Below, one piece after another: positions 7,640-22,257 of a stretch of DNA of 33,164 nucleotides. Made by a program: the position numbers and the translations under genes. Source of the DNA: Ectocarpus siliculosus (taxonomy: Eukaryota; Sar; Phaeophyceae; Ectocarpales; Ectocarpaceae); the NCBI GenBank assembly GCA_000310025.1, contig FN648800.1, forward strand, positions 8,843 to 42,006, in the 5' to 3' direction. The notes beneath the pieces are model-generated. The model was not told the origin of the DNA. It saw nothing but the letters and a program-made list of their open reading frames with translations, and searched no databases. Every line of letters starts with the position of its first letter. Within the stretch, counting starts at the first letter, position 1.

Positions 7640-7830
7640 AGGAGGCTTTCATGGTTCGGATTCCCGACCCCTTCAAAAACAGCCCAGTCCCAGCAACTTT
7701 TAGGTGGCCCTAACGCGCGCCACCGGTGTCTCGCGAGCCCCACACGTAACGGGTAATGTACGGACGGGTCCTCTGCGTGCCATGCAGAAGAAAGTGCGAG
7801 AAAAATCGCTATGTGATATTTTGTGGATCA
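7640..7830 (+). repeat. Dispersed repeat R1, copy 3 (most diverged)
   Basis: AGCAACTTTTAGGTGGCC, GCGCCACCGGTGTC, GTAATGTACGGACGGG, CCTCTGCGTGCC and GTGCGAGAAAAAT correspond in order to blocks of copies 1 and 2. It abuts the C-terminal end of the arginine-rich minus-strand frame (7809-8140) and may have truncated it. Confidence 0.45.
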
Positions 7831-8140
7831 TCCAAATCCGTGTGTTTTAGTTCAAAAGGTGCCGAGGAGAAGTCGAATGATTGCGAGTCAATGCCTTGCA
7901 CTCCAAGGCGTATTTGTTTATTAGCATCACCACCGCGATGGCTGTCTAAACTCGGTGCCGGTAACCTTGTTGCACAATTCCTCATTTGACTAAAATGTTG
8001 ACGTATCATATCGAGTTCAGGGTGTGAGTCGTGTGGTGTGTTATTGTTCGCATTGCGACGTTGACGTTCCGTTAAGATTTCAGCACGTCTTCGTCTGCGA
8101 GATCTTGCTAGTTCTGCGTGTTGCGCGTTATCCGTATACA
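7809..8140 (-). pseudogene. Arginine-rich coding fragment joined out of frame to gene B
   Basis: A minus-strand frame stays open from inside gene B's second exon to a stop at 7809. Its N-terminal part is very basic (ELARSRRRRRAEILTERQRR, then NANNNTPHDSHPELD) and its C-terminal part is acidic/polar (FELKHTDLDDPQNIT). Basic R/E/Q-rich tracts of this kind occur at the N-termini of Helitron Rep-helicase proteins, which would suit the Helitron helicase nearby. No HUH Rep motif is visible, however, so that link is inference. Bases upstream of about 8140 are gene B exon 2 read in another frame, so any genuine protein begins after the junction. Its end overlaps repeat R1 copy 3. It could also be chance. 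Confidence 0.25.
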
Positions 8141-8738
8141 GTGACGTGCTTGAACTTCTTGCCGTCGGAAGACTTGGCACCAGCGTAACGACGCCACACC
8201 GCGTGGATGTTATTCCACTCTGACAACAACAGCAAGCAAAAAGGGCATTGTTGTGGAGAGATTTAGCGGTTGCGGTTGCGATGCAGTTTCATGTCAGGGC
8301 TTCATGCAACACCTGACTGAACAACATTCGGGCACACATCAGGTGGAAATTACTTGATATAATTATAGAGAGAAATTGCTTTTACATGTGTAGCCGCGGC
8401 TGTTGACCTGTTCGGTTGGGATCCCGAGCGAAGGAGTACCTCCCACCGGGGCGAGACAGAGCTGGCACGGCTTGAGGTACGTTGTCGACGGGGTGAGGAT
8501 GGTGCAGGATACGCTACAACTGTCCTCGTCGCGGATGTTGTTACGGTCGCAAGGGGCAAACTTGCCTTTACCGTCGCGCTTGTTTATGAGCTTAACGTGA
8601 CCGCCGTCGTCGCAGTCGGGCCCGGGGCAAGGCCAGTTGGGGTCGCCCTTTTGTACAGGGCGGCGCGGCTCTCCACTACGACTCGCTGACTGGGTGGACT
8701 TACGCTTTTGCTGGGGAGCTACGGGAGAGGGCGTTCAT
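8128..8738 (-). pseudogene. Gene B: cysteine-rich paralogue of gene A, frameshifted and truncated
   Basis: Exon 1 (8738-8440) starts ATG AAC GCC. One extra base in an A4 run (8705-8708 on the plus strand) shifts the frame; ignoring it, the frame runs SPAKRKSTQSASRS and then a cysteine-rich core (WPCPGPDC, APC, DSCSVSC, KPCQLC). A GT donor lies at 8439-8438 (GGAG|GTACTC). A T-rich intron ends TTGTTGTCAG at 8220, and exon 2 (8219-8128) reads WNNIHAVWRRYAGAKSSDGK, then a stop at 8128-8130. Corrected exon 1 is 298 nt, phase 1; gene A exon 1 is 295 nt, phase 1. Both have KRK(S/T) near the N-terminus and PC-x2-CL near the exon end, and both second exons carry N-x2-H, W and DGK in the same order. 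No counterpart of gene A exon 3 is seen; an arginine-rich frame takes over at about 8140. It is a decayed paralogue unless the extra A is an assembly error. Confidence 0.55.
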
Positions 8739-8740
8739 GT

Positions 8741-9170
8741 TGTGTTGTAGCTGAAGGTCGATGCGGGGATGAGAGGGGAGGATGTCGAAAATGAGAGTGA
8801 CCAGGTGGGGCCGGTGGGGCTGGAGCACGCTTTCACGCTCTACAGACTAAATTCTGACTAACCTTGGAGAGGAAATATGGAACATTTGACGAAATGTGCA
8901 CTCTTTCTTGCACTCTGCTCAGACTGACCTCTGACTGACTTCCATCAAATGTTTAAACTTCTGACTAAACTTCCAACAATTATTCCAACTTCTGACTACA
9001 CTTCCAGCAAGAATCCCATGAAACGGTGTGGTATCACGAAAAGTCGATCTCTCTTGCTTGACTGTATATATACGATATAGCACAGTCTACAGTTGCACCT
9101 TCAATACAACAGCAGCAGCAGTACAACAACAGCAGTGTTCACAGTACTACGTAAGACATACAAGTTTTTT
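8741..9170. repeat. Short ~31-bp degenerate tandem repeats; no gene
   Basis: TTCTGACTAA-type units recur at about 8853, 8930, 8960 and 8990 (CTTCTGACTAAACTTCCAAC and variants), ending near 9015. A TATATATAC stretch at about 9065 and a CAG/CAACAG tract (9108-9133) follow. No coding frame was recognised. Confidence 0.5.
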
Positions 9171-9213
9171 GGCGGCTTACGCCGCCACGCCCAATGGAGC
9201 GAGTTCCAAGGTA
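9171..9213 (+). repeat. GGCGGC-hairpin dispersed repeat, copy 3
   Basis: GGCGGCTTACGCCGCC (perfect 6-bp stem) is followed by ACGCCCAATGGAGCGAGTTC and CAAGGTAC, paralleling copy 1 (CCGCTCAATAGCTCGATTCC, AAGATAC). Confidence 0.5.
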
Positions 9214-9387
9214 CACGGGGACGGTACTTGTGGGGATCGTGGAAGGTTAAATGCAAGTTATGTGTCGTTGAGGATGCCCGTTTGACGTGCATGTCTGTCG
9301 TGTGACAACATGTTGGCACGTAGACATAAAACTGTATTAATGCAATCGACACGCTCAGACATACGCCAAATCCTACATGGCGACACC

Positions 9388-9905
9388 ACGCATACGATCA
9401 CAACCACCTAAAGACACACCACCGACCATGAAGGGTCGAACTCCCACGCTACTGACGTAACAATGGACATACACACACCAAGCTCGAACTTATATAAGCG
9501 GCAAAGCGGCAACGCTCGATCCCACCCAAAGACACGACACAGAACTCTCACGCTTGTGACGCAACAAAACGACACCAATAGTCGACAACGATCGCACCCG
9601 CGTAAAGACACGCCTACGACGATGCAGGATAGCACTCTCACGCTTCTGACGCAACAAAGGACATCCACACACCAAGCTCGACACCAACAGGAGACAACGA
9701 TCGCACCCGCGTAAAGACACGCCTACGACGATGCAGGATAGCACTCTCACGCTTCTGACGCAACAAAGGACATCCACACACCAAGCTCGACACCAACAGG
9801 AGACAACGATCGCACCCACCTTAAGACATGCCTACGAACATGAAGTGTAGCACTCACACGGATCTGAAGCATCAAAGGACATTCTCACACCAGGCGTGTA
9901 CCTCA
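9388..9905. repeat. 109-bp minisatellite at the 3' side of the Helitron helicase
   Basis: CGATCGCACCC(G/A) anchors recur at 9591, 9700 and 9809, a 109-base period. More diverged, length-variant units start at about 9388 and 9517. Within each unit are AAAGACACGCCTACGAC, ACTCTCACGCTTCTGACGCA and CACACACCAAGCTCGA. Units starting at 9591 and 9700 are nearly identical. The array begins 35 bases beyond the helicase stop, so in the helicase's orientation it is 3' subterminal, a place where Helitrons often carry tandem repeats. Confidence 0.8.
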
Positions 9906-9939
9906 ATACGCAACTCCGACATACACTGGACACATTACT

Positions 9940-12200
9940 CTAACGCGATAGGCCTTTTGCCTCAATCCACCCGCCGTCGGCGCATTGGTTGGGATGGCGG
10001 GCACTAGCCTGGCCATTTACGGGCGCGTTTTCTTCTGTGTCGTGTAGCCCAGGCGGCCCCGTGTCTCGTCGGGTGTTGTTGCTGGTGTCGGTTGCGTGCA
10101 TGTATCCGATGAAGTCAATGTACGAAGGCGGCAAGGGCGGGGAATTGTTGGTAGAGTCAGTTGCAGCATCTACGAATGACGGGAATGTGATGTTAGCGAC
10201 GAACGCGGCGCGGTTCAACGATCCTCGCAATCGTGATGATAATGTAAGACACATGATAGATGATCGCTTCTGCGCACGACTAAGTGCGACGTATAACTGA
10301 CCATGAGTGAAAACGTCAGCTCTCAAGTCAAGACCTATCTTGGAAAGTGTCTGTCCTTGACTTTTGTTGATGGTTAGCGCGTAGCACACTCACTCGTAGT
10401 GGAAGTTGCAATCGTGAGAAAGCAATACCGTTGCTGCCGACTTTAGTCTTGAAGCGAATACGTGGGATGAGGACGAGCGTTGAGAAACCGTCTAGTAGTT
10501 GTACATGCACAATTCGTGTTGAGTATCCACGAACGATAGCCTTCTGACCATTGACCAAGCCCTGCTTGAAGTTTAGGTTTCGTGTGATCATGACCATGCA
10601 ATTCAGTTTCAAATCCAAGGCATGAGGCGGTACACCAAAAACGTCAATAGCGTGGAGGTCAGCTGCGGCAACGAAACCCAATCCATCGTCAGTCGCGTCA
10701 GGATCGACGGTGTCACAACTGTATGCTGTGAGAAGGTCTCCTGGAAGGATTTCAAGGACGTGTGCGTTAATGGTGTCTATGGTGGCGTTGGTTGACGAAA
10801 GGATGGCTCTCGCCTTGAACTCAGTCGGGTCGGCGGCGAGGATGTCCGGATACACGAAATTGATTAGTTCTTCAAAAGAGTCTGTGTTGTCAAGGACGAA
10901 TCGTTCAGAGGCTACGTCGGGCATGCTATGAACGTATGCCAATGGCACGGCATCGATGCCGTCGTCTGTTGTAACATGCGGTTGGGTACCAACACCAATA
11001 TTTCCGACGAACGCAGCATAGGCCGCGTCCTCTCGATCGCGTTGCGATATGGTAAGACGCATACGTTGTACATATTGCCAGAGCGGACTGGAGATGATGG
11101 ATGCATCAATTGTTTCGGCGGGCCCGCCATGTTTGACGACAGGCCCTATCTGGCGTAGATCACCGCTTAGCAGGACAGTCTTGCCTCCCATGATCATGTT
11201 ATTGCCCATAAGATCTTTGAGTGTAAGATCAAGAGCTTCGACAGAAAAACGATGGCTCATTGGGATTTCGTCCCAAACAATAAGGTCACACTTCCGTAAT
11301 ACTTCTGCTCGTTGCGATTCAGCGGGGATATTGCACGTCGCACCGCTGACATTCTTTTCGTCCAGTGGTAGTTTGAACATGGAGTGCGCAGTCCACCCCT
11401 CAGGTAGTTGGAGACCTGCGATACCCGTACTCGCAACACAGAGCACTAATTTACTAAGTGATCGTAGGTGGGCGCATAGTACGCTCTCCGTGTGTGTCTT
11501 ACCCGTTCCAGCAGGCGCGTCTATCATGAATACGTTAGACGAACCGGATGCCACGCTGTTAACGACGCTATCGTAAAGATGACGTTGCTCGGCGGTGAGG
11601 TTTGGGAGATGCTCGGCAACAAACATGCGCATTATCTCCGGATCAAACATGTGCTTGAAACGCAAGTACTCAGTGTCTAGATGGACTACGGCAGGCAGTC
11701 CAACGACTACGTTCGTGCGTCCATGGTGCTGTAACCCGAGATCGATTTCGCGAAGGGCTGCGTTATCGGCATCGAGATCGGTCATGGACATGCGCAAATC
11801 TGCCGTGAATTCCTCGTTGAAATGCCCCCAAAGAAGTTTTGCAGGTGCGCCGTCAAGAATGAGCGTAACAAATAGCTGGCGCAACTGTCTACCCGTGTTG
11901 AAAATACTGGCCTCCTCTTGGCATACTTTGTATTCTTCGTCGTGTTTGATTATACCCATCGCTCTAGCGGCGTCCTGAAAGGTGTCATACACAACGTCTT
12001 CGTGAGTTCGCAATTGCTGAAATGATCTTGCGGGCTTGTGGTGTAGAAGTAAGCGCAGGTAAAAAACATCACCTTTATCAGGGGACATGGCCCACACACG
12101 TGCGACATGCTTTTCAGATGAACGTGGCGTAACAAAATTGCGGTATGTATCTCTATAGTATACGCATTTTGTGCGCGCTTTCTCCGTAAGCATGTTGAAC
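9940..12200 (-). pseudogene. Helitron-type Pif1-family DNA helicase, 5'-truncated and frameshifted
   Basis: The plausible Helitron part starts near 12200 (Met codon at 12193) and includes VARVWAMSPDKGDVFYLRLL, ARSFQQLRTHEDVVYDTF and RQLRQLFVTLIL, the segment that precedes the helicase core in Helitron proteins. Core motifs: Walker A APAGTGKT (about 11518-11495), Walker B/motif II IVWDEIPMSH (about 11278), motif III LLSGDLRQIGPV (about 11165), then LNCMVMITRNLNFKQGLVNG. The C-terminal motifs ([29 protein letters not shown]) lie in a different frame (10389-9940). At 10386-10396 the minus strand reads CGAGTGAGTGTGC; removing one AGTG restores R-V-C-Y-A-L-T, so a 4-bp tandem duplication broke the gene. 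No Rep/HUH domain is present. The open frame continues upstream to 12583, but that part is gene A exon 3 and intron 2 read out of frame. In an intact element the protein would unwind DNA for rolling-circle transposition. Confidence 0.9.
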
Positions 12201-13334
12201 AATCTTGTCGGAGTCGATGCCCTCCAGTTGCATGTTGTCCACGAACTGGGTGAAGTTATCGTCGAACACCTTGCGGCCGCACCCCTTGGCGTGCAGGGGC
12301 TGGTTGGAGGGCAGCGTAGGCTCCGCGTCGGGCCGATAGGTGGATATGACGAAATCACCCTCGACGATGAGCCCCTGGCAGGACAGGCAGGCCTCCTGAT
12401 TAAAGAAAATAAAAGGAAGAAGCAGAATGCAGAGATAAACACAAAACGAAAAAATGTGTAAACGAAGGGCTGAACGAAAATTAAGCACACAACAAACAAA
12501 ACAAAACGTGAAAGAAATGAACGACCGAGAGCGAAGAAACAGAACGCAGTGATACAAAAACAAAATGCACGAAGAATCGGCACGTATCAGTAAACCTCAC
12601 CCCGATCCTGGCGTCCTCGGCCTCAACCTTCTCGATGAACCGGAAGGCCTGCTTGCCGTCCCTGCTGAGCTTGATCTTCAACCCGAAGCAGTCCTCCCAC
12701 TTGTAGTGTTTGTTGACGTACGCTGAACATGAAACGAAAACGACACAAGAAGGGAAGAAAGAGCGGAGGAGGCAAAATGAAGAAGGACCGCCCGGAGGAA
12801 AAACCACAAAGGACGACCGTAAAGTAATAAAGCATACGTTGAACGCAAGACAAAACACCACACCGCACCGCTCTATTCCACACGTGTTTCGACGTCTGTA
12901 CAGCAGCGGCAGTAGTTAAAAAACGACGAAGCGCGCCCAGTCAAACAAACAATACGAAGACAATACGAAGCGAACTAAAATAAGCAGAGACATGAATGAC
13001 ATCGCAACACGAATCGAGAAGGGAATAGATCACACGCACGTTGCTTGCCGCTCTTAGTCTTGACGCCGTTAGGATTGGGTACGCCCAAGCACAGGACGCC
13101 GGGCTTGATGTCCGACAGGCAAGTTGTGCAGGGCGAACGCGCGGACAGGATGCTGATCTTGAATTTGCAGCCCTTCGTCCCGAAATTTTCACAGCCTCCG
13201 AAGGTTGCACAACAGCGAGTCACGTTGGCTGACGGGCAGAGGGCGCACTTGCCGATGACCTCACCGAGAGTGTAGTCAGCTGTCTTCCGCTTGGTGCTGG
13301 GCGGAGTAGACGCAAAAATGTTGCGCGACGCCAT
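12153..13334 (-). CDS. Gene A: three-exon cysteine-rich (zinc-binding-like) protein, ~219 aa
   Basis: Exon 1 is 13334-13040 (98 codons + 1), exon 2 12722-12601 and exon 3 12395-12153 (stop TAG). Donors are C|GTGCGT and GGG|GTGAGG; acceptors are ATGTTCAG| and TTTAATCAG|. Both introns (317 and 205 nt) are T-rich, and phases (1, 0) match exactly. Exon 1 starts MASRNIFASTPPSTKRKTAD and carries KCALC, RCC, GGC, KGC and SPCTTC, likely metal ligands. Exon 2 has NKHYKWEDCFG and SRDGKQAFRF. Exon 3 holds C-x2-C-x28-H-x3-C (EACLSCQGLIVEGDF to HAKGC), close to the C-x2-C-x28/30-H-x2-C spacing of PARP-type DNA-nick-sensing fingers. A DNA- or RNA-binding role is inferred; the family is not recognised. The last ~15 codons (after about 12200) overlap the helicase in another frame, so the true C-terminus may be lost. 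Gene B at 8.1-8.7 kb is a paralogue. Confidence 0.72.
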
Positions 13335-13413
13335 ACTCGAGTGCGCGAGAGAATGGTGTGGGATGGAGTGGGAGCTTGCGCGGACGGCGCGAGGGCGCGC
13401 GTGAGCGGGAGCG

Positions 13414-13423
13414 AAAACCCTAA
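13414..13423. promoter_or_regulatory. Telo-box-like AAAACCCTAA upstream of gene A
   Basis: AAAACCCTAA on the plus strand lies about 80 bases upstream of gene A's ATG, in a GC-rich stretch with no TATA box. In plants AAACCCTA boxes mark promoters of many translation and growth genes. Transfer of that role to this organism is inference. Confidence 0.2.
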
Positions 13424-13465
13424 GAAGATCTACCGAACCTCACCGCCCGTTGACCGAACGCCGAT

Positions 13466-13868
13466 GGATTCCGGCAAAAGATTCCGGACAAAGATATTCA
13501 TATGAGAAAAGATAAAGAAATGTTATTCATATGAGTAAAGAGCCGCACACACGTGCAAAATATGTGTGACACACGTGTAAAAATTATAGGTATTATTGTG
13601 TGTGTGACAGAGGGAGATAGAGAGAGACAGAAAAAGAGAGACAGGAAACAAATGAGAGAGGGAGAAGGATTCCGGAAAAAGATTCCGGTAAAATATGTTC
13701 ATATGGGAAAAGAAAAAGAAATGTTATTCATATGAGAAAAGAGCCGCACACACGTGCAAAATATGTGTGACACACGTGTAAAAATTATAGGTATTATTGT
13801 GTGTGTGACAGAGGGAGATAGAGAGAGACAGAAAAAGAGAGACAGGAAACAAATGAGAGAGGGAGAAG
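13466..13868. repeat. Near-identical 201-bp tandem duplication
   Basis: GGATTCCGG at 13466 recurs at 13667, and GAGCCGCACACACGTGC at 13540 recurs at 13741, a constant 201-base offset. From the second anchor to the end the copies are almost identical, including GTGTGACACACGTGT and the GAGAGACAGAAAAAGAGAG tract, so the duplication is recent. No ORF is duplicated with it. Confidence 0.85.
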
Positions 13869-14064
13869 GCAGAGAAAGACACACAGACAGACACAGAGAC
13901 GGAGAGAGAGAATCACATACACAGACAGAGAGAGAAACGGGGAAAATATATATATACCTGGTACCATAATAATAAAGTTGTACCGCCCATTCGGACTAAT
14001 TCCGAGAGAGGAGCGAGAGAAAAAGCGCCGAAGAGAGAGAGAGAGAGAGAGCGTCTCTCACGAC
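13869..14064 (+). repeat. GA/CA-rich low-complexity tract
   Basis: Purine-rich GAGAGA and CACAGACAGA runs cover the stretch, with (GA)9-10 around 14033-14052 and (TA)n at about 13947. It extends the purine-rich tail of the 201-bp duplication. Confidence 0.7.
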
Positions 14065-14785
14065 TCGACGGACGGCGAGACAGCGAGACCGGTAGAGAAA
14101 AAAGAAGGCAGAGACGAACGGAATGGCATTGGAGAGGACGATAGAGCACATCGGACCGAAGGAACTGCGCTCCGAGCGTCAAAATTGCGAAAACTGCAAA
14201 AAGCGAAATGCTGGCCTGTCAGCGCTCGAACGGTCCGGACTGAACTCTGAAACCAAGTGAATAAGCGTGGTGGCCTGAGAGCGCTCGAGAGAGCGTTTCC
14301 CGGCCCGGAGAAAATGCTGCGATTCTAGGAAAAAGATAAATGAAATAACTGTTATGCCTAAAACCTTGCAGCACTTGCAGTAATTGATGATGCCGTGAGA
14401 TTTGCGTGCATGTTCAAGCTCGAAACAAAACCAGTTAAGTCTAAAGTTGTGGCGTACCACAACAACAATCCATCTACATTTATTTATTAGTCCAATCTTC
14501 CTTGCTACGGTTGTACTTTGTGCAACTTGGAGGGTGTGTGTGGCACATACGTAGTACGTAACCATCCGTGTGGTGAAAATACACGATGCATCCAGTTCGC
14601 GTTGCCTACGCTAGAGAAGGCGACAGGATACATACATGCATGCACTACTGTACCTACAACGCATACCACATGGGACGGACAGTCTGTCGATATCTATCTA
14701 CAGATGACGCCATGCGGCAAAAACATGTCTGTGCTAGGTACTACAGTACATGTATGTAAGCTTTACTTCAAGTACATGTCACGAT
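14065..14785. other. No supported gene
   Basis: Only short frames. Palindromic TACATGTA/ACATGCATGCA words occur near 14630-14780. Frames on the minus strand just left of 14900 (GLQRTVISEESRSSLDEI, stop at 14786) look coding-like but are not in the splice-consistent frame of the neighbouring candidate gene. Confidence 0.35.
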
Positions 14786-14901
14786 TTATGAGTTAACGTT
14801 CTCCAAAATCTCGTCCAATGAGCTGCGTGATTCTTCAGAGATCACAGTCCGTTGAAGTCCCTTGCTTGGCGTAGACGCGCCCGGATGCGGGAGATTAAGC
14901 C

Positions 14902-15267
14902 TTACTTCACGGTGATGTAACTCAGCTCGCCCTTGGAGTCTAGAGCTCGCGACAGGGGCGCTGTGACCGTGAGAGTGGCACGCCCACGTCGGCGAAGACG
15001 GCCGAAAAAAACGTTTAAACTCCATTTAAAAACAATCAAAACCGATTTACCGTCTTGGGGATCTAGGCTTGTGGGTGTTGACCACCCGTATCGGCTCTCG
15101 AAGAGGTGTTGTTGGTTGTCGTCAAAAAGGGTAGTCCCAATTTTCTCTTGAGTTAGTGCGTACTCTCTCCGCAAGTGTGTCGGGCAAGTAGAACGTGCGT
15201 ATGCAGCAATGACCACTGATGTACATAAGCAGAGCACCCGATTGTGCAGTCTTATACATGTAGTCAC
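14902..15267 (-). CDS. 3' end of a small unidentified gene with a repeat-filled last intron
   Basis: The penultimate exon ends at 15051 and is open upstream to about 15267. Its last 40 codons include REYALTQEKIGTTLFDDNQQ and HLFESRYGWSTPTSLDPQD. The donor is GACG|GTAAAT. A 111-nt intron (15050-14940) ends GAGCTCTAG, and the last exon (14939-14902) adds DSKGELSYITVK and a TAA stop. The split codon (G|AC) keeps the frame. No domain is recognised and the 5' end is not defined. The intron holds most of a dispersed repeat also found at 16231-16350. Against it: the exon is short and a second coding-like frame continues left of the stop. Confidence 0.35.
   Translation of the reverse strand: MTTCIRLHNRVLCLCTSVVIAAYARSTCPTHLRREYALTQEKIGTTLFDDNQQHLFESRYGWSTPTSLDPQDGKSVLIVFKWSLNVFFGRLRRRGRATLTVTAPLSRALDSKGELSYITVK
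14940..15030. repeat. Dispersed repeat R2, copy 1 (inside the candidate intron)
   Basis: GAGCTCGCGACAGGGGCGCT GTGA, then a GC-rich section and GGCCGAAAAAAACG, match the copy at 16231-16350 in the same orientation. Confidence 0.55.
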
Positions 15268-15480
15268 AGGTCAAAGGCAAAACTCAAGTGCTGCGTGTTA
15301 GCCTGCACGTGTCCTGTACGGCTGCAGCGCGGCGTGCCAACTCACTTGTTGCGCCGCTGGACCCTTTAGTACGAGAGGCTTGGCTCTGAGTACGCAGGAA
15401 GGTCCGAAGGAGAAGAGAAGATGGTTTGGTGGAAATATAGTTACTTGATCAGTGGAGACCAGAAATAATGTAGAGAAACA

Positions 15481-15618
15481 GAGGGGTAGTGAACCCCGGA
15501 GAAGTAGAGAGGTTGAGAAACCCCAAATAGGCAAAGGGTTGGAGAACCCCCAAAGAAGCAGAGGGTTGGAGAACCCCTAAAGAAGCAGAGGGTTGGAGAA
15601 CCCCTAAAGAAGCAGAGT
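15481..15618. repeat. Array of five ~27-bp units, each a mini-hairpin
   Basis: Units start at about 15481, 15508, 15536, 15563 and 15590. Each contains a G-run/AACCCC pair around a 4-5-base loop (for example GGGTTGGAGAACCCC), followed by TAAAGAAGCAGA. The last two units are identical and the first two are diverged. Spacers are not unique, so this is a minisatellite and not CRISPR. Confidence 0.8.
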
Positions 15619-16230
15619 GAGAGGATGGGGCGAGAACGCGCTCATCCTCGAAATCATGGAATCACACCTATCCGACAACGTCGACCAATCACACGTGTTC
15701 AGAATACGTACTGGTAAGCTACGATACCTTCCTGGAAAGATAACTTCAACACCATGCTCTCGAACCTGTGTCACGTATGCACATCAAGTATTGTACTTGC
15801 ACGCGCAAGTGATTACTTGCACTGACTACGACAAACCACAGAATACAGCTTCAACAATTGAACTAATGTACTTTCCAAATTCGACTGCTGCGCCCATACG
15901 AATATTCATTCATTCAAGCACGCAGCAAGTCTGAGCTACTTGCACTATAACATATTTCCGGAAATCTAGGCTATGCAGATTTTTTCTGGCTATGAAACAC
16001 AGAACATCAACCATGTCCATATTCCGAGTATGACAGACCATGCGGAATTTTACCTACTACATGATATAGCGACATTATCAATATTTGAACTAGTCAAACT
16101 GACTACCTAATGCTGAAGCTACGGTAGTGCCAAATATTCCAACATACCGCACCGCAACGTCTAGCTCAATGACTGAAATAGTGGTTGCGTGCATTCACCG
16201 TGCTGTAACTCTACTCGCCTTTCTTTGTAG
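15619..16230. other. No supported gene
   Basis: AT-richer stretch with one frame of about 105 codons on the plus strand (15617-15934). It lacks motifs or splice context and is not annotated. Confidence 0.4.
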
Positions 16231-20466: not shown

Positions 20467-20589
20467 GGATTCGAACGGGTTAAGCCTGAACCTCGTAGCG
20501 AACTGGTGACCAGGAGTGTGCAGTGGCGCCATGGAGTTAGTGGGGGGGGGGGTGTACTCACAGTCGTGCATGCCGTAGCCATTAGACCA
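20467..20589 (-). other. tRNA-like pol III promoter boxes (possible SINE or tRNA relic)
   Basis: On the minus strand, TGGTCTAATGG (20589-20579) matches the tRNA A box at nearly all positions and CGTTCGAATCC (20477-20467) matches the B box. They are about 100 bases apart, wider than in an intronless tRNA, and the T-stem and acceptor stem do not pair. A G12 run on the plus strand lies between them. A tRNA-derived SINE head or decayed tRNA gene is possible; chance is not excluded. Confidence 0.3.
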
Positions 20590-21015
20590 TTGACCTCGCA
20601 TCCCTACAAAGCCGGGACGGAGCACGCCGGGTTCTCACCGGACCAGGCTCTCACATCACCAAGCGCGAAGCGCCGTGAGGTATTTGGCGAGTCGCATGAA
20701 GGGTGAGCTGCATCCTGCTAAGGGTGTTCGGCATCTTGTGCTTACTTCCTTGCGTACGGATGACAGCTACGTATGACTTAATTTATTTTCTGGTGCTTTC
20801 ACTTCCAGAGACAGTTGTAAGGACTGTGTAACTGCCTCGAGGAAGCTTGACCATTTTAACACAACGTGGTGCGATCATCCCCCGTTGCGCGGAGTGAGGT
20901 TTCTCGACCCCGCACAACATGATCTACTCGACCACCATCACGGTTACCGCCAAAAAAAAAACCGAGGTAAAAAAAAAAACCGGTAGCCTGGATGCCGAGT
21001 TCACGAAGTGAATTG

Positions 21016-21140
21016 GCTTGTTTTACAACGTCGTTGCCAAGCGACGAAAACCCAATCCCGATGGCAAACACCGAGTGGGGGGCTTGTTTTACAACGTCGT
21101 TGCCAAGCGACTAAAACCCAAACCCCGATGGCAAACACCG
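21016..21140. repeat. 65-bp tandem duplication
   Basis: GGCTTGTTTTACAACGTCGT at 21016 and again at 21081, followed in both by TGCCAAGCGAC, AAAACCCAA and CCCGATGGCAAACACCG. It is flanked by A9-A10 and G-rich homopolymer runs. Confidence 0.85.
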
Positions 21141-22257
21141 GGGGGGGGGGTATAGGAACGTCTTTCTGCCTGTCCGTTACGGTAAATCACCCCAAGTTAA
21201 GTACTCACAGAAAATGGGTACGTGACACTACTTGAAGATAGAGTAGGTGGAGATTTTTTTGGCTTTTTTTTCTTGCGTTGTTGTTGTGTGAGAGTGAATG
21301 CGACGACCATGGGTTGCCCCCAACCGCCAAAACCTTTGACCAACCGAACATGTACTCTCACACTTAAGCATTGGTCGTGATCGGATGAACGTGGTGAGGA
21401 ATTGTAAACAAACATGCGGTCTCTTTAGCAGCGCACAGTTTACGTACACAGAGCGGCAACCCACGGCCAGTTGAAGCCGCTGTACAGCACACACATCTTT
21501 TGTGGCGTGGGTACGTGGCGGGTCAGTGTGTACCTTACCTCAAGCACGTCTCACATACGTATGTGACGGTTCGGACGTTAGGTTGCGCGTTGCGAGTTCA
21601 CGAGTATGGCGCTTGGTCAATCCGTCGGACATGCATGACAGCCGCGTGTGCACACCAGCACCGAAGCACAGGAAGAGTACAGGGTTAGCAGCACAGAGAA
21701 CTTCTGTTGTCTCCGCAATGCAAACAAAAGCCAACGCGCTCTCAACACGTCTTGTATATATGAGTTCTGCATGTGGTCACCCCACGATTCCAGGATTTTG
21801 TTAACCCAGCCAAACACCGCGTACGGAAGGCAGTCAAGCCTTGAAGAAGTAGACACGTAGTCTGGAACACTTCTTTATGTGGCGGAGAGAACTTGCCTTC
21901 CCCTGCTACATGTCAACAGCAGTATGCAAACGACACCGACCGCGGTCATAACGCAACACGCCGTGCCTCGCCTGTCCGTTCCAACGCGAAATACTTACAA
22001 CAGCTGTATTTTGCATTCGTGAACACACGCCACACCCAGCATGACGCACGTTCACTCTCAGCCGGGGTGTGCTGTGCGAAAGCCGCTAAGCTCAGCGGAG
22101 CCGCGCAGATTTTGTCAAGAATATTCTTCACACGGAACCGCGAAAATGTGTTTTTGTCTACAACACCTCAACCATGTAGGGAAGATGTTGTACTCGACGC
22201 CAAGCCACACATTCTTCAGTTCAAACTCGACCCTGTCAAGAGAACTGTCCATTGTGG
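21141..22257. other. No firm gene; possible end of the decayed coding tract
   Basis: The minus strand near 22250-21985 carries two short coding-like frames (MDSSLDRVEFELKNVWLGVE; AAPLSLAAFAQHTPAESERA), the second ending at a good donor GTAAGTAT. They may extend the 22258-24347 tract but cannot be joined in one frame. Confidence 0.3.

Follow-up and report, generated by a model that had tools for sequence, protein, structure and literature searches.

Helitrons may rely on steps beyond those performed by their Rep/helicase (Rep/Hel) protein, and few accessory genes or domains have been named for them: in the parts consulted of one survey, RPA, OTU, endonuclease and SET genes or domains are described from Helitron relatives (PMC4067079). 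Here we describe two cysteine-rich genes, A and B, in a 33,164-nucleotide stretch of DNA from Ectocarpus siliculosus (contig FN648800.1, positions 8,843 to 42,006; G000:C254:8843-42006), in the following termed the window. They reside in two nested Helitron-like elements and probably represent two lineages of one accessory gene of Helitron-superfamily transposons in this large algal genome, with a product that may act as a DNA-handling cofactor of Rep/Hel. The genome assembly comprises 189 Mb in 492 contigs, and all loci with L or C numbers are taken from it as well.

With respect to the RPA-like accessory genes of plant Helitrons and Helentrons, RPA is absent from the Pfam hits obtained here, and there is a short Cys/His-rich protein instead. 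In the Helentrons, as far as the sections consulted describe them, an AP endonuclease is fused to Rep/Hel (PMC4067079), whereas no endonuclease is among the Pfam hits of the open reading frames (ORFs) of L026 and L032, two helicase loci of the Ectocarpus genome, and OTU is present instead. Proto-Helentron-Pi from Phytophthora infestans, according to the same sections, resembles the A-carrying element of the window (element A) in being a Helitron-like element of a stramenopile with no endonuclease and with an A/T insertion, and its first ORF codes for a hypothetical protein of 218 amino acids, which can be likened to A and B by description only; unlike element A, it carries a SET gene and has the ends 5'TT..CTAG (PMC4067079). 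The extra ORF of FoHeli3 from Fusarium oxysporum is, in the part of its description considered, confined to Helitrons, devoid of known domains and located upstream of the transposase like the A- and B-type genes (hereafter cargo genes), but it is oriented opposite to the transposase, and here, too, the likeness is one of description and not of sequence (PMC5148889). In Ectocarpus itself, Helitrons are common and comprise 13 families, the gene content of which is not described in the text sections consulted (PMC12477816). A description of the present gene family was not found among the best-ranked papers of the open-access literature searched.

Homology and structure of genes A and B

Profiles of the A family and the B family (six rows each, some of them partial) align in hhalign with a probability of 96, an E value of 4.3e-9 and a score of 62.9 over 157 aligned columns, beginning in exon 1 and extending as far as exon 3. 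By comparison, the maximum was 24.3 in 100 column shuffles and 22.0 in 100 shuffles with the 11 cysteine columns held fixed, and the reversed control scored 12.7; the similarity of the two families is far above chance. Taken alone, each of the two units likewise exceeds its shuffles (60 each): exons 1 and 2 score 31.1, with a maximum of 17.6 on shuffling, and exon 3 scores 33.8, with a maximum of 15.0. Since the A protein of the window is only 21% and 24% identical to the B-type proteins of L026 and L027, respectively, the split between A and B is old, and this low identity together with the profile homology supports the earlier view that the genes have diverged too far for a recent duplication.

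The encoded proteins comprise about 205-240 residues. Common to both families are the sequence P-x(1-2)-KRK near the N-terminus (ERK in L036) and a subsequent Cys-rich N-terminal module, as well as two Cys/His units, one spanning exons 1 and 2 (C-x2-C..H-x5-C) and one in exon 3 (C..PLH-x2/3-C). The H-x5-C motif is conserved in the wider family, its Cys being lost in gene B of the window. The KRK(S/T) N-terminus and the PC-x2-CL core reported before are present in A and B alike. In exon 2, N-x-H, H-x2-W and DGK indeed follow each other in the same order in both genes, but the first motif, reported before as N-x2-H, reads N-x-H in A, and neither W nor DGK is retained throughout the wider family, both being absent in L026 and W in L035. 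The conserved Cys/His columns suggest zinc sites, perhaps three, and the KRK following a proline is a sequence which we take to be a possible nuclear signal.

Gene A is encoded on the minus strand and consists of exon 1 (13040..13334; KRK N-terminus, Cys core and first C-x2-C), exon 2 (12601..12722; 122 nt; N-x-H-x2-W-x2-C, with GT..AG junctions) and exon 3 (12156..12395; C-x2-C..PLH-x3-C; compared with L029, L030 and L033), separated by introns of 317 nt in phase 1 and 205 nt in phase 0, both of them GT..AG. Its exon 3 is damaged: the 3' tail is out-of-frame Rep/helicase DNA that runs into the truncated helicase. At L030, two inverted copies of the A-family exon 3 (2446-2634 on the plus strand and 3080-2889 on the minus strand) are found beside a helicase fragment.

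In gene B, likewise on the minus strand, exon 1 (8386..8738) begins with the ATG at 8738, is disturbed by a frameshift of one base close to its start and ends at the donor, while exon 2 (8138..8219) is truncated. At about 8138 a deletion has joined exon 2 to what is left of the N-terminal region of a Rep/Hel ORF, namely that of the B-carrying element (7811..8138, minus strand), so that gene B of the window has no exon 3. This remnant is similar to parts of ORFs in L021 and L027, and over the corresponding region of relatives (L026:5585-7093 and L027:3602-5227) Pfam gave no family. A third exon is part of both genes, retained in the window for A alone. The B-type gene of L027 has three open exons with introns of phases 1 and 0 as in A, an exon 2 of 104 nt and its own stop codon ahead of the Rep/Hel ORF. 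The 295 nt formerly proposed for exon 1 of gene A were recovered at 13334-13040, in contrast to the 298 nt proposed for gene B, where exon 1 measures 353 nt including the frameshift. As the corresponding exon of L027 has 349 nt, the argument from equal exon 1 lengths fails, whereas the phase 1 intron is indeed common to both genes, although their exon lengths differ.

Genome-wide, exon 1 of gene A has 21 matches, of which seven, the window itself included, show at least 97% identity, while exon 2 has 13 and exon 3 four matches. Exon 1 of gene B has 129 matches and a probe made of the first 161 amino acids of the helicase ORF of the window has 66, fragments included in both cases. Helitron helicase, Rep or OTU parts are present at several of the loci inspected. 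The preliminary description had proposed that copy numbers and Helitron neighbours should separate a transposon-borne gene from a host gene, and with 21 and 129 exon 1 matches for A and B, respectively, and Helitron parts at several loci the outcome is that of a transposon-borne gene.

A Helitron-like element nested in another

Element A (9161..14354, minus strand; 5,194 bp) starts with TAACAGTTATTTC and ends with GGCGGCGTAAGCCGCCAAAAAACTTG. Its 3' subterminal hairpin GGCGGC-GTAA-GCCGCC (9171..9186, minus strand) is the same in the three copies compared (L015, L017 and L018) and is followed by AAAAAACTTG in these copies as well as in the window. Both boundaries of the element are common to L015 and L017, the 5' end also to L016 and L004, and the 3' end to L018. 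The site without the element is seen in all seven B copies compared, with the sequence CATATGTC in five of them, CGTATGTC in L020 and CAATTGTC in L022, where the window reads GGCA, then the element, then TATGTC. In this insertion of the window, element A is thus located between A and T, and a target duplication is absent. Because its ends, 5'-TA..CTTG-3', differ from the 5'-TC and CTRR-3' ends given for canonical Helitron1 elements in the part of the source consulted (PMC3627910), element A was not filed under Helitron1.

The spacing of 4 kb between the two genes results from this insertion of one Helitron-like element into another. Of the earlier picture of two paralogous genes 4 kb apart, the homology persists but the suggestion of a pair of host genes does not, and a host gene pair or local duplication is rejected, given that one element is inserted in the other and that the exons occur in many copies.

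Element A contains a truncated Rep/Hel ORF of Helitron type at 10331..12184 on the minus strand, which comprises only the PIF1 helicase part (PIF1, E = 2.5e-53; Pif1_2B, E = 1.2e-9). Other copies carry internal deletions, between 12556 and 10840 in L015-L017 and between 12362 and 10205 in L008 and L018, and all five of these deleted copies (L015, L016, L017, L008 and L018) retain exons 1 and 2 of gene A. L029 still has the 5' end and a portion of the helicase, and no gene A exon was found there. The copies of element A are explained by one ancestral element with several distinct internal deletions. The element also harbours tandem repeats, one of 109 bp in three units (9570-9892) and one of 201 bp in two units (13466-13869).

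The B-carrying element, too, is Helitron-like. Its 5' (upstream) part lies at 14355..15052 on the minus strand and continues from 9160 in the copies without element A, as revealed by BLAST matches to L019, L021, L023 and L024. At its end, homology stops just past a hairpin of the type GGGCGC-CTCT-GCGCCC in the eight copies examined, one base of the hairpin being changed in L021, L022, L023, L025 and L027, and the BLAST ends fall near the same base in seven of the eight. The window thus shows a degraded copy of the B element that has received, between A and T, the shortened element A. About 1.09 kb of the window (15053-16144) are absent from the B-element copies L019, L021, L023 and L024; this insert is flanked by TACCG at 15048 and 16145, holds a 27-bp tandem repeat and starts on the minus strand with TGTTGGAATATT, in the manner of a solo long terminal repeat.

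A fuller plan, with cargo gene, Rep/PIF1 helicase and OTU protease following each other on one strand, is found at L026 and in part at L027. At L026, the B-type gene is followed by a single ORF in which Pfam recognises Helitron_like_N (E = 1e-34) as well as PIF1 (E = 9.8e-55), and then by OTU (E = 9.4e-8) in another frame. L027 combines gene B with a PIF1 helicase in two ORFs. PIF1 and OTU (E = 2e-5) share one ORF at L032.

Helicase association, selection and rival explanations

For the association of cargo genes with helicases, 17 of the 21 A rows, 46 of the 129 B rows and 44 of the 66 helicase rows were kept, the rows left out being fragments, second pieces and the majority of the weaker B matches. 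At the cargo loci of the window (A), C27, C173 and C64 a helicase match follows on the same strand at most 8 kb downstream, compared with an expectation of approximately 0.06 such pairs under random scatter (hand arithmetic, 63 x 44 x 8,000 / 2 x 189 Mb).

The ratio of nonsynonymous to synonymous substitution rates (dN/dS) was obtained for exon 1, skipping codons with stops or gaps, for pairs with the window and for pairs among L026, L034 and L035. Between lineages, it amounts to 0.16, 0.28 and 0.29 in the A family and to 0.23, 0.33 and 0.39 in the B family, with a synonymous rate (dS) that is saturated for gene B of the window against L026, L034 and L035. Between gene A of the window and its recent copies it ranges from 0.21 to 0.61, the value for L008 being inflated because L008 reads partly out of frame. 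As judged from the six comparisons between lineages, exon 1 is under purifying selection at this level. In addition, cargo and helicase appear to have diverged broadly in parallel, with a Spearman coefficient of 0.69 (P = 0.03) for their identities over ten locus pairs, which are non-independent and in some regions short; in the pair L028-L030 the cargo identity (82%) is above that of the helicase (74%).

As an accessory factor of the transposon, the protein would enter the nucleus, would fold around zinc, would bind the DNA of the element's ends in single-stranded, nicked or hairpin form and would assist Rep/Hel in rolling-circle transposition, akin to the role proposed for RPA in plant Helitrons. 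If this were true, a selected, intron-bearing gene with zinc motifs would be a further partner of Helitrons and offer a handle on how their transposition finishes.

Several observations weigh against such an accessory gene. A helicase match of the kind just described is present at just four of 63 cargo loci. The low number fits with internally deleted copies such as L015-L018, and in L015, L016 and L017 a C-terminal helicase piece does lie downstream of gene A, outside the range of the 161-amino-acid probe. Rep (HUH) is not among the Pfam hits of the helicase ORF of the window, which is why element A is regarded as a truncated Helitron-like element and not as an autonomous Helitron. At L026 the upstream part of the Rep region is interrupted by a run of N, and at L027 Pfam gave PIF1 only and no hit for Rep or OTU, the OTU-like end having been judged by eye; its cargo gene moreover lacks one Cys of C-x2-C. 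At the helicase loci L029 and L032, both truncated, no cargo exon was found. Between gene B of the window and nine recent B copies, dN/dS ranges from 0.26 to 1.21 and exceeds 1 in three of the nine, like in decaying copies. Finally, a recognised DNA-binding domain was not found in the searches of Pfam, NCBIfam and PDB.

The position and strand of the cargo gene are retained even where the helicase of the element shares only 47-50% identity with that of the window, and the divergence of the cargo genes, which are under purifying selection between lineages, broadly tracks that of the helicases. This speaks against the idea that the cargo genes derive from a cysteine-rich host gene which was picked up, perhaps repeatedly, and is carried along as a passenger with no function in transposition, even though gene capture is known for Helitrons, the cargo genes have introns and many copies have internal deletions. 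A host progenitor was not identified among the exon matches, in the absence of a wider search and with L035 and L036 bordering gaps, and we consider a captured host gene unlikely. With a transposon accessory gene as the favoured explanation, such genes could be mistaken for orphan host genes, a likely misreading that would hereby be corrected.

Fingers of the zf-PARP family, as in PARP1 and DNA ligase III, have the spacing C-x2-C-x(28-34)-H-x2-C. The A family shares with them the layout C-x2-C..H..C, with I and G in register, and zf-PARP was the sole family listed by Pfam for the spliced A protein (E = 0.033), albeit with 15.4 bits under a cut-off of 39.3. A nick-sensing protein with tandem zinc fingers of the PARP/DNA-ligase III type would also agree with the alignment of both A units, that of exons 1 and 2 and that of exon 3, to the C..I..G of known fingers and with the mutual score of these two units, which at 17.7 is slightly over the shuffle maximum of 16.6. 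For B, however, the two units score 7.3, under a maximum of 14.6, and PF00645 matched only one of six A members and none of six B and seven exon-3 members, so that membership in zf-PARP was rejected; nor did PF00645, scanned against the genome at E <= 0.1, match any cargo locus. A profile of four PARP/ligase sequences gave scores of 13.1, 16.1, 6.2 and 10.7, all under the respective maxima of 60 shuffles (15.2, 17.8, 15.8 and 14.8). As to spacing, the exon 1/2 unit has H-x5-C and exon 3 has H-x3-C in A-type genes and H-x2-C with one Cys displaced in B-type genes. Taken together, we regard this type of protein as quite improbable. The sole PARP-type finger of the genome scan lies at L040 (486-647, minus strand; C16:613585) with an E value of 3.7e-5, under the curated cut-off, and probably belongs to a PARP or ligase gene of the host as one of its exons.

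With the break recognition by PARP1 and ligase III fingers as an analogy, an accessory gene of Helitrons might also be thought of as the first of a class of tandem zinc-finger proteins, encoded at the front of the element, that bind nicks or flaps, sense the break made by Rep and either shield it from host repair or recruit host ligation so that rolling-circle transposition is completed, for which we see only a slim chance. It is highly improbable that the cargo gene, located directly upstream on the same strand, represents the 5' exons of Rep/Hel and thus a zinc-finger N-terminus of the transposase, given that exon 3 of L026 and L027 has its own stop and the downstream ORF its own Met near the start.

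Family searches and minor features of the window

The earlier statement that the family has no name holds, as the Pfam and NCBIfam searches gave nothing significant. NCBIfam yielded nothing for the six A members and four unrelated weak names for the six B members (best E = 0.018), which were taken as chance, as were the weak Pfam matches of single members to DUF7107, DAAD and Phage_terminase. Two zinc ribbons were rejected as candidates for the N-terminal module, with no cargo locus among the three genome matches of the Top1 ribbon (PF01396) and the ten of the GRF ribbon (PF06839) at E <= 1. Profile searches of PDB with the A family, the B family and exon 3 gave no hits at E <= 10, and single-sequence AlphaFold models, with predicted local distance difference test (pLDDT) values of 40.3 for exon 3 and 46.7 for exon 1 of A, were of low confidence and not used. 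Pattern searches of viral contigs resulted in 18 and 17 matches with no relatives among them, and Rfam gave no match on the window at gathering.

A repeat of approximately 610 bp is located at 20542-21150 of the window and recurs twice beyond the Helitron of L015 (5420-6031 and 4694-5297). In keeping with an ochrophyte, perhaps brown-algal, host, a chlorophyll-binding family has 87 matches in the genome, which concentrate on few contigs (G000:C92, C232, C488 and C16:100199-282213), many with identical scores; for one of these matches (C163), the best matches in PDB are fucoxanthin-type proteins (FCP).

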